Part shown: positions 56,207 to 59,188 of the stretch, piece by piece | Position numbering within the stretch: the stretch's first letter is position 1 | Layout of the letters: the number at the start of each line of letters is the position of its first letter | From: Anaeromyxobacter dehalogenans 2CP-1 | GTDB taxonomy: Bacteria > Myxococcota > Myxococcia > Myxococcales > Anaeromyxobacteraceae | Assembly (NCBI RefSeq): GCF_000022145.1 | Contig: NC_011891.1 | Span: 3,888,501-3,952,500, forward strand | Direction of reading: 5' to 3' | Length of the DNA stretch: 64,000 nucleotides | Notes under the pieces: model-generated | What the model saw: only the letters and a program-made list of their open reading frames with translations | Told to the model about the DNA's origin: nothing | Databases searched by the model: none | Translations under genes and position numbers: made by a program

Positions 56207-57379
56207 ATGCGCTCCGTCTCCCTCGAGCTCCGGCTCCTCGTCGCCCTCTTCGCCCTCTGCGCCGGGGCCGCCTTCCTCGGCGCACGCCTGAGCGGCGGGA
56301 TCGTCGAGCAGCAGGTGGAGCAGGCCGGCACCGAGCGGCTGCGCGGCGCGGAGGAGGCGTTCGCGTCGCAGGAGCGGGCCGAGATCGAGAAGCTCTCGGC
56401 CACGCTCGACGCGCTGCTGTCGCGGGACGACCTGCGCCAGGCGTTCGTGGCGCGCGACCGGGAGCGCCTGCTGGCGCTCTCCGCGCCGCTGTTCGAGACG
56501 ATGCGCGACCGGGATCGGATCACCCACTGGTACTTCATCGCGCCGGAGCCCGACGCGACCGTGTTCCTGCGCGTCCACCGGCCCGAGCTGCGCGGCGACA
56601 AGGTCGATCGGGTCACGTTCCGGCGCGCGGTGGAGACGGCCGACGTGGGCGCCGGCAAGGAGCTGGGGCGCACCGCGTTCGCGCTGCGGGTGGTCCGGCC
56701 CTGGCTCCAGGATGGGAAGGTGGTCGGCTACCTCGAGCTGGCCGAGGAGATCGACCACTTCCTGGGCGCGATGAAGTCGCGCACCGGCGACGACTACGGG
56801 ATCCTGGTGAAGAAGCGGTTCCTCGACCAGCGGCGCTGGGCCGAGGTGCTCGGCGAGCGCTCGAACACCTGGAACGACCGGGCCGACGTGGTGGTGGTCG
56901 ACACCACCACCTTCACCGAGGGCATCATCGACTACGAGGGCGACCTCGAGGTGCTGCCCGACGAGGGCGTCGCGCTCGGCGAGGTGGTCCGCGACGACCG
57001 CGCGTACATGCGCGGCATCTTCCCGCTGCGGGACGCGGGCGGGCGCAAGGTGGGCGGCCTGTTCGTGCTGCACGACTTCACCGCGGAGCACGGCGCGGCC
57101 CGCGCCGCCATGCTCCGCTCCTTCATGGTGCTGATCGGCGTCGGCGCGGTGCTGGCCGCGATCCTGGCCGCGATGCTGCACTACGCGGTGTTCGCCCGGC
57201 TGCGCCGGCTGGAGCGCCGGCTCGAGCGCGAGGCGGCCCTGCGCCAGCTTCCGCCGGGGCGGGTGGTCGAGCTCACCGACGACGAGATCGGCCGGCTCGA
57301 GGTGCTGCTGGGCCGCGCGCTGTTTCCGAGCCGCGACGAGTTGCCGCGCGACCCATCGTCCACCGGCCGCCAGGGTTGA
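56207..57379 (+). CDS. Double-Cache-like membrane sensor protein without output domain
   Basis: 390 aa. TM1 (LLVALFALCAGAAFLGA, about 9-25) is followed by a large periplasmic domain. Its pattern THWYFIAPEPDATVFLRVHRPELRGD and FALRVVRPWLQDGKVVGYLELAEEI fits a double Cache-type ligand sensor. TM2 (about 305-325) then leads to a short cytoplasmic HAMP-like tail. No kinase or methyl-accepting domain is present. It starts 73 nt before the heme-motif histidine kinase, so it may be its accessory sensor. The function is inferred from context. Confidence 0.8.
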   Translation: MRSVSLELRLLVALFALCAGAAFLGARLSGGIVEQQVEQAGTERLRGAEEAFASQERAEIEKLSATLDALLSRDDLRQAFVARDRERLLALSAPLFETMRDRDRITHWYFIAPEPDATVFLRVHRPELRGDKVDRVTFRRAVETADVGAGKELGRTAFALRVVRPWLQDGKVVGYLELAEEIDHFLGAMKSRTGDDYGILVKKRFLDQRRWAEVLGERSNTWNDRADVVVVDTTTFTEGIIDYEGDLEVLPDEGVALGEVVRDDRAYMRGIFPLRDAGGRKVGGLFVLHDFTAEHGAARAAMLRSFMVLIGVGAVLAAILAAMLHYAVFARLRRLERRLEREAALRQLPPGRVVELTDDEIGRLEVLLGRALFPSRDELPRDPSSTGRQG

Positions 57380-57451: not shown

Positions 57452-59188
57452 ATGGCGGAAGCACGCGAAGCCGAGGAGCGTGGCACCGGCGCCCCGGCGC
57501 CGGCCGGTGGCGTCCCGGGAGGGAGTGCGTCCGGCCGCGCAGTGCCGTTCTGGCGCCGCCTCTCCACCAAGCTGCTGGCCGCGGTGGTGCTGCTCGCCCT
57601 GCTCGCGCTCGCGGCCGTGGTGCTCGCGGAGCGCCGCTTCGAGCGGCACCTCCAGGACGAGATCGTCCGCTCCACCGCGCTGGTCGGCGAGGCGGTGACC
57701 ACGGTGGGCCAGGCGGCGCTGCTCGGCGCGACCGAGCGCCACGAGTACCGGACCATCGGCCGGCTCGCCGCGCTGGAGGGCGTGGACCGGATGCGCGTCC
57801 TCGACCCCCGGGGCACGGTTCGCTACGCCAGCCGGCCCGAGGAGATCGGGCAGACCCGCGACAAGGCGCACGCCTCCTGCGTGCCCTGCCACGCCGGGCA
57901 CGAGCTGCCGCTCTCGCGGGCGCCGGCGGAGCAGCGCTGGCGCGAGGAGCGCGGGCCGTCCGGCCGTCGCCTGGTGGTCACCACGCCCGTCTACAACGAC
58001 CGGACCTGCGCCACCGCCGAGTGCCACGTCCACCCGCCCGGCCGGCAGGTGCTGGGCCTGCTCGAGACCGACGTGGCCCTGGAGCCGATCCTCTCCGGCG
58101 TGGCGTCGTTCCGGCGCGGCTTCGTCTCGCTGCTCGTGATCGCGATCGTCGCGACCTCGGCGCTCATGTACCTGTTCCTCCGCTCGGAGGTGCTCGGGCC
58201 GGTGGCCGCGCTGGTCGAGGGCACGCGGCGCGTGGCGAAGGACCAGCTCGACGTGGAGGTCCGGGTCCGCTCGCGCGGCGAGCTCGGCAACCTGGCCGCG
58301 TCGTTCAACGACATGACCCGCTCGCTCCGGCGCCTGGAGGACGAGCTGAACGGGCTGCTCGCCGGCCTCGAGGAGCAGGTGGAGGCGCGCACGGCCGATC
58401 TGCGCAACGCGCAGGAGCAGCTGGTGCGGACCGAGAAGCTCTCCTCCCTGGGCAAGCTCTCGGCCTCCATCGCCCACGAGATCAACAACCCGCTCGCCGG
58501 CATCCTCACGTTCGCGAAGCTGGTGTCACGCACCCTGGCCGAGGGTCCGCCCGACGACGCGCGGCGCGCGGTGCTGCAGCGGAACCTGGGGCTGGTCGAG
58601 CGCGAGGCCCAGCGCTGCAGCGCCATCGTGCGCAACCTGCTCGACTTCGCGCGCGAGCGCCCCATGGCGAAGAAGCCGGTGGATCCGCGCGCGGCGGTGG
58701 AGGAGGCGCTGTCCCTCATCGCGAACCAGATCGCCATCCAGGGCGTGAAGCTGGAGCGCCACCTGCCTCCGCTCCCGCAGGTGCTCGCCGACTTCGGCCA
58801 GCTCCGCCAGGCGTTCGTGAACGTGGCGATGAACGCCTGCGAGGCGATGGGCGCGAAGGGCGGCAAGCTGCGGATCACCGCGCGCGCGCCGGAGGGAGCG
58901 GTGGAGATCGCGTTCCAGGACGACGGGCCGGGCATGCCGCCGGAGCGCGTGAGCCACATCTTCGACCCGTTCTTCACCACCAAGGAGAAGGGCACCGGCC
59001 TGGGCCTCTCGGTGGTGTACGGCATCGTGCAGCGCCACGGTGGGAGCATCGCCGTGGACAGCACCGAGGGCGAGGGCACCACCTTCACCTTCCGGCTGCC
59101 GGCGGTCCCGGCGGAGCGGACCGCGGAGCCGCCGGCCCCGCCGATCCCGGCCGACCCGGCCGCCGCGCCGGCGCGCGCGCAGGGCTGA
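57452..59188 (+). CDS. Sensor histidine kinase with periplasmic c-type heme motifs
   Basis: 578 aa. TM1 is at about 40-59 and TM2 at 224-244. The periplasmic domain between them carries CVPCH (Cys143, Cys146, His147), a classic CxxCH heme-attachment site, and CATAECH (Cys186, Cys191, His192), a CX4CH variant. HAMP (245-300), a coiled coil, the HisKA box SIAHEINNPLAG (His342), N-box, G1 DDGPGM and G2 GTGLGLSVVYG follow. A redox or gas signal sensed through heme is likely. Comparable heme-c periplasmic sensors are known in Geobacter. No response regulator is adjacent. Confidence 0.92.
   Translation: MAEAREAEERGTGAPAPAGGVPGGSASGRAVPFWRRLSTKLLAAVVLLALLALAAVVLAERRFERHLQDEIVRSTALVGEAVTTVGQAALLGATERHEYRTIGRLAALEGVDRMRVLDPRGTVRYASRPEEIGQTRDKAHASCVPCHAGHELPLSRAPAEQRWREERGPSGRRLVVTTPVYNDRTCATAECHVHPPGRQVLGLLETDVALEPILSGVASFRRGFVSLLVIAIVATSALMYLFLRSEVLGPVAALVEGTRRVAKDQLDVEVRVRSRGELGNLAASFNDMTRSLRRLEDELNGLLAGLEEQVEARTADLRNAQEQLVRTEKLSSLGKLSASIAHEINNPLAGILTFAKLVSRTLAEGPPDDARRAVLQRNLGLVEREAQRCSAIVRNLLDFARERPMAKKPVDPRAAVEEALSLIANQIAIQGVKLERHLPPLPQVLADFGQLRQAFVNVAMNACEAMGAKGGKLRITARAPEGAVEIAFQDDGPGMPPERVSHIFDPFFTTKEKGTGLGLSVVYGIVQRHGGSIAVDSTEGEGTTFTFRLPAVPAERTAEPPAPPIPADPAAAPARAQG

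Follow-up and report, generated by a model that had tools for sequence, protein, structure and literature searches.

A conserved CXXCH and CX4CH motif pair in a putative diheme Cache histidine kinase of Anaeromyxobacter dehalogenans, and its probable NtrC-type regulator

The nearest described counterparts of the kinase analyzed here are the Geobacter sensors GSU0935 (PDB 3b42) and GSU0582 (PDB 3b47), which carry a c-heme PAS-like (sCache) domain. The heme of GSU0935 is ligated by His144, together with Met60 when reduced; Met60 is part of a redox-linked spin switch, and once the Geobacter sensors are reduced, NO and CO displace it. The potentials of GSU0935 and GSU0582 are −251 mV and −156 mV, respectively (PMC8396549). 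According to the same source, signal proteins of G. sulfurreducens contain one or two c-heme motifs with the signature CX2-4CH, the two-motif proteins being GSU0591 and GSU0599, of which GSU0599 is annotated as two-component (PMC8396549); these resemble our kinase in signal transduction and in having two c-heme motifs, a likeness of description only. The sCache_heme domains (Tll0287-like, PF11845), described in 2026, likewise hold a covalently attached c-type heme in a Cache fold, and a signalling member binds NO and has the properties of an NO sensor (PMC12889525). The CX4CH spacing itself has a precedent in tetraheme cytochrome c3, where it occurs twice (PMC10454114).

In strain 2CP-C, Adeh_3383 and Adeh_2011 were described in 2013 as PAS-like proteins with an additional heme-binding motif (PMC3831638). 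These are very probably the orthologues of the present kinase and of its paralogue, respectively. In the genome taken as that of 2CP-C (G002), clear heme-Cache kinases were found at 1.070, 2.234, 2.252, and 3.893 Mb; of these, only the last two were recovered with the profile of the two-site family. Interpolation of locus numbers from position placed the single-heme kinase at 1.070 Mb near Adeh_0923 and the other two near Adeh_2011 (2.252 Mb) and Adeh_3383 (3.893 Mb). Since these positions fit, the two-motif state of the orthologue has very probably been reported already. The text of that report contains no analysis of spacing, ligands, partner, or regulator for the two proteins, and the literature searched yielded no report of a CX4CH at the ancestral heme site, of the Met loss, of the partner gene, or of a link to the regulator of the paralogue.

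The kinase is encoded in a window of 64,000 bases from A. dehalogenans 2CP-1, corresponding to positions 3,888,501-3,952,500 of the single 5,029,329-base contig. The open reading frame at 57452..59188 (all features given here lie on the + strand) codes for a sensor histidine kinase of 578 amino acids. Its identification as such in the preliminary description was borne out by Pfam, which detected HAMP (residues 243-293, 58178..58330, E 3.1e-10), HisKA dimerisation/phosphoacceptor (residues 333-402, 58448..58657, E 1.3e-13), and HATPase_c (residues 449-551, 58796..59104, E 4.6e-28) domains. The kinase domains are intact. The translation contains the H-box SIAHEINNP, with the phospho-acceptor His342, and the N, G1, F, and G2 boxes; the protein has both the HisKA domain with its phospho-acceptor His and the HATPase_c domain of a transmembrane sensor histidine kinase. 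The first transmembrane helix was located by hydropathy at residues ∼40-59 (57569..57628), where the predicted model shows a long helix, and the second, also by hydropathy, at residues ∼224-243 (58121..58180). The periplasmic part was assigned to no family by Pfam or NCBIfam. The protein resembles GSU0935 and GSU0582 in having a Cache-type domain between two transmembrane helices followed by HAMP, and a heme c motif, aligned with theirs, before the last strand. However, those proteins hold one heme at a CXXCH and have an MCP output, whereas the window kinase has two motifs, a CX4CH at the shared site, Leu in place of Met60, and a kinase output. The kinase represents a variation on an established class of bacterial redox/gas sensors.

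Site 1, CVPCH (Cys143, Cys146, and His147; residues 143-147, 57878..57892), is the additional heme c motif and lies between the predicted β2 and β3, and site 2, CATAECH (Cys186, Cys191, and His192; residues 186-192, 58007..58027), is the CX4CH and lies between the predicted β4 and β5. The coordinates and residue numbers given earlier for both motifs were correct in the translation, as was their placement between the two flanking hydrophobic helices. The whole periplasmic stretch contains four cysteines, all within the two motifs. On shuffling this stretch 20,000 times, CXXCH arose in 0.33% and CX4CH in 0.24% of the sequences, and both together in none. Conservation in homologues, which had been proposed as a check, was observed in 28/28 distinct Anaeromyxobacteraceae sequences of the CX4CH kind, with identity down to ∼30%, and in L052 and L054 from two further Myxococcota families. 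An alignment of 27 rows showed the residues of the motifs to be invariant or almost so, apart from a single distant row in which both sites read CXXCH. A match was obtained in 22 of 60 related genomes, and every family member of the CX4CH kind has both motifs; a search of plasmids gave nothing. The motif pair is not due to chance, for which conservation is far stronger evidence than the shuffles.

The family profile, searched against all PDB sequences, gave GSU0935 (3b42, E 0.0022) and GSU0582 (3b47, E 0.017) as the best two matches; the Cys-Cys-His of their heme site is aligned, though the matches are weak. The sole CXXCH of these proteins falls on the CX4CH of the family, Cys140-Cys143-His144 of GSU0935 corresponding to site 2, and the columns of Cys186, Cys191, and His192 are invariant in 41/41 aligned sequences, GSU0935 and GSU0582 included. 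Because the crystallographic heme site aligns on the CX4CH, site 2 is read from this alignment as the ancestral heme site with two residues inserted, and the CXXCH as the added one. Of the earlier reading of a diheme periplasmic sensor, the two-heme part stands, whereas its implied view of the CX4CH as the secondary site was rejected by the alignment to 3b42 and 3b47. A CX4CH is easily overlooked by CXXCH scans, yet it can act as a sensor's principal heme site.

Tertiary structure prediction with AlphaFold2 (27 sequences, pLDDT 79.5, pTM 0.67, residues renumbered by +27) gave the order of a long first helix, β1 (111-117), β2 (122-126), site 1, β3 (163-168), β4 (171-181), site 2, β5 (200-209), and the second transmembrane helix. 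The model was comparable to WalK (Z 12.7, 2.3 Å over 136 residues), CitA (Z 12.1, 2.4 Å, 120 residues), and DcuS (Z 10.9, 2.7 Å, 128 residues), and a Foldseek search listed 3b42 among the matches (E 1.1e-3). The periplasmic domain between the two transmembrane helices is hence predicted to be a single Cache domain, and weak sCache_3_2 Pfam matches were present in 17 of 27 family members. The sCache_heme family PF11845 found no match in the 27 members at E 0.1 and none above the cut-off in the genome. With regard to the CXXCH that sCache_heme proteins have in an inserted Cache element, site 2 sits at the heme position of GSU0935, with CX4CH spacing. The description of sCache_heme includes neither a second heme nor a CX4CH (PMC12889525). 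The genome encodes cytochrome c assembly proteins (PF01578, ResB). Conservation, the predicted fold, and the position of one motif on a crystallographic heme c site together make the reading as a two-heme periplasmic sensor well supported, and it is highly likely, judged from these comparisons, that both sites carry heme c.

When the profile search was extended to 195 Myxococcota genomes, three kinds of sensor were distinguished, namely, those with site 2 only, as CXXCH (L023, L059, L060, and L061), those with two CXXCH sites (L053 and L055-L058), and those with CXXCH and CX4CH, comprising the Anaeromyxobacteraceae family together with L052 and L054. In the maximum-likelihood tree the 30 CX4CH rows fell on one side of a branch with support of 98/96, and the site-2-only and two-CXXCH kinds were intermixed. 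This would fit an insertion of two residues that was gained once, and a site 1 that some lineages have lost; the direction of gain and loss is an inference since the root of the tree is not fixed.

The heme pocket shows a further deviation, which the preliminary description had overlooked, as it had the conserved dCache_3 gene and the paralogue with its regulator and respiratory genes (see below). The column of Met60, located by residue counting in the alignment of the profile with the PDB sequences, holds Met in 38 of 41 rows and Leu in the remaining three, which are the window protein, where it is Leu90 (57719..57721), and its two nearest orthologues. The distal Met of the GSU0935/GSU0582-type sensors is thus absent from the window kinase. 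Speculatively, His97 (57740..57742), which occurs in six rows of the 41-row alignment, all of the orthologue clade, might replace it, and His194 of a CHxH arrangement (58031..58033), conserved in 29 of 41 rows, is another candidate axial ligand. As to the signal, the preliminary description had named redox state or NO/O2. Redox and NO fit the best-characterized relatives, which respond to redox state and bind NO or CO; O2 is the least likely of these options, as the two sCache_heme proteins tested form no stable O2 complex. By comparison with its relatives, the window kinase may read redox state or NO, or possibly another signal.

No response regulator adjoins the kinase gene, which is followed by genes for an ABC ATPase and an M23 peptidase. 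About 72 bases upstream lies a gene for a periplasmic dCache_3 sensor of 390 amino acids (56207..57379; PF14827, E 8.8e-15) with two transmembrane helices, a HAMP-like tail, and no kinase domain. It precedes the kinase in five of five orthologous Anaeromyxobacter loci, whereas the surroundings of four kinases that are paralogous or distant yielded no such gene. The dCache_3 protein is possibly a co-receptor of the kinase. Upstream of this gene pair no sigma-54-like site was found.

The genome contains one close paralogue, at 2,206 kb, that shares 33% identity with the window kinase in the sensor, 69-70% in the kinase core, and 79% in DHp, the phospho-acceptor helix being near-identical; the next-best kinase of the genome shows 44% identity to the window kinase core. 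The paralogue stands in a cluster (L064:6996-14715 and L119:328-2618) consisting of the kinase, an M54 peptidase, an NtrC-type regulator (L064:9370-10752) with receiver, sigma-54 activation, and Fis-type HTH domains, a gap, and genes for Fer4 and NrfD proteins, followed by a GCV_H-like protein, a small ORF, another GCV_H-like protein, and a cytochrome that has nine CXXCH motifs and is hydrophobic in a C-terminal segment. The genes for the regulator, Fer4, and NrfD are all present in 16 family loci. A sigma-54-like site (a consensus match with at most two mismatches, taken as a candidate promoter element) was found on the operon strand of the gap between regulator and Fer4 in 10 of these 16 loci, ∼155-372 bases before the Fer4 gene, against ∼0.06 sites per gap estimated from the rate in shuffled sequence, although the loci are related and the counts are not independent. 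In two genomes (L105 and L072) this gap was ∼2.4 kb instead of the usual ∼0.5-0.8 kb, and the L072 gap includes a gene matching DUF6311. In gene content the cluster resembles the CbcSTU (Cbc4)/SirCD-type quinol dehydrogenases, which comprise an Fe-S protein, an NrfD-type membrane protein, and a multiheme cytochrome c (PMC11434368), and differs from CbcSTU by the extra GCV_H-like proteins; it matters here only as a likely regulated target. Owing to the similarity of the two kinases and the conserved layout of the cluster, the window kinase is a probable second input to the NtrC-type regulator and, by sequence comparison, probably feeds it.

The loading of both sites has to be weighed against two other readings. 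A sensor with one heme, like GSU0935, in which the other motif is structural or vestigial, would be in line with the site-2-only relatives in the same family (L023, L059, and L060) and in the same genome (L062), and the nesting of three site-2-only family members among two-site sensors on the tree indicates that site 1 can be lost. A vestige, however, would decay, whereas both motifs retain their Cys and His residues throughout the CX4CH-kind family sequences, which renders the one-heme sensor improbable. Two Cys pairs with nearby His residues could also make a site for zinc or Fe-S instead of heme; yet the alignment places the triad of site 2 on a heme c site known from crystal structures, relatives exist that have a single pair or a CXXCH exactly at site 2, and where members gave weak Pfam matches these pointed to families of multiheme cytochromes and none to zinc or Fe-S sites, so that metal binding appears very remote.

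If Leu in place of Met60 left the sixth position of the site-2 heme open or weakly ligated, NO (or CO) rather than redox state would be what the kinase senses. The confinement of this exchange to the window protein and the two orthologues closest to it, the displacement of Met60 by NO and CO described for the reduced Geobacter sensors, and the behavior of the signalling sCache_heme protein, which lacks an axial Cys, binds NO tightly, and holds no O2 (PMC12889525), all speak for such a gas sensor. However, His97 or His194 could take the ligand place of Met, and the presence of a second heme points to electron exchange no less than to gas binding; a sensor of NO or another gas rather than of redox state is judged somewhat unlikely. 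The kinase might also have an unlinked regulator of its own, as could be argued from the lack of an adjacent regulator, the low identity of the two sensor halves, and its own partner gene. Against this stand the near-identical phospho-acceptor helix and the distance in sequence that separates the pair from all other kinases of the genome, and a private regulator, though plausible, is the less favored arrangement.

The reading preferred here, to which we assign a probability of about 60%, is that of a single-Cache diheme sensor signalling through the NtrC-type regulator of its paralogue to a respiratory module. The site-2 heme would be placed as in GSU0935 and GSU0582, with the site-1 heme added, and the input would be an altered oxidation, spin, or ligand state of heme, set by the periplasmic redox poise or possibly by NO. 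Such a change would shift the Cache domain and the second transmembrane helix and, by way of HAMP, set the autophosphorylation of His342. The phosphate would most likely pass to the regulator beside the paralogous kinase, whose location suits it to switch on, at a putative sigma-54 promoter, a putative quinol-to-cytochrome module of Fer4, NrfD, GCV_H-like proteins, and the nine-heme cytochrome; the dCache_3 protein may supply a second input. The kinase would then probably contribute to the timing with which the cell produces part of its respiratory chain. An unlikely extension of this reading is that two diheme Cache kinases with near-equal cores and diverged pockets, one with and one without the distal Met, converge on one NtrC-type regulator, with the dCache_3 co-receptor joining the second, such that a single sigma-54 operon of respiration would combine the input of two periplasmic heme sensors, each set to its own potential or to NO. 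Periplasmic redox sensing and the choice of respiratory chain in cytochrome-rich anaerobes are largely an open question, and the locus offers a testable case, in which a putative two-heme kinase and a paralogue whose heme pocket differs have a candidate regulator in common, encoded beside a candidate respiratory target.

Two further heme-Cache kinases were observed. The third such kinase of the same genome (L062:1063-2601), with a single CXXCH at site 2, has a glutamyl-tRNA reductase-like ORF immediately upstream and is followed by an ORF for a sigma-54-activator regulator (L119:12398-13537). The other, a CX4CH diheme kinase from a different Myxococcota family, precedes two proteins in each of which a receiver is fused to a GCV_H-like domain (L074:655-4160).
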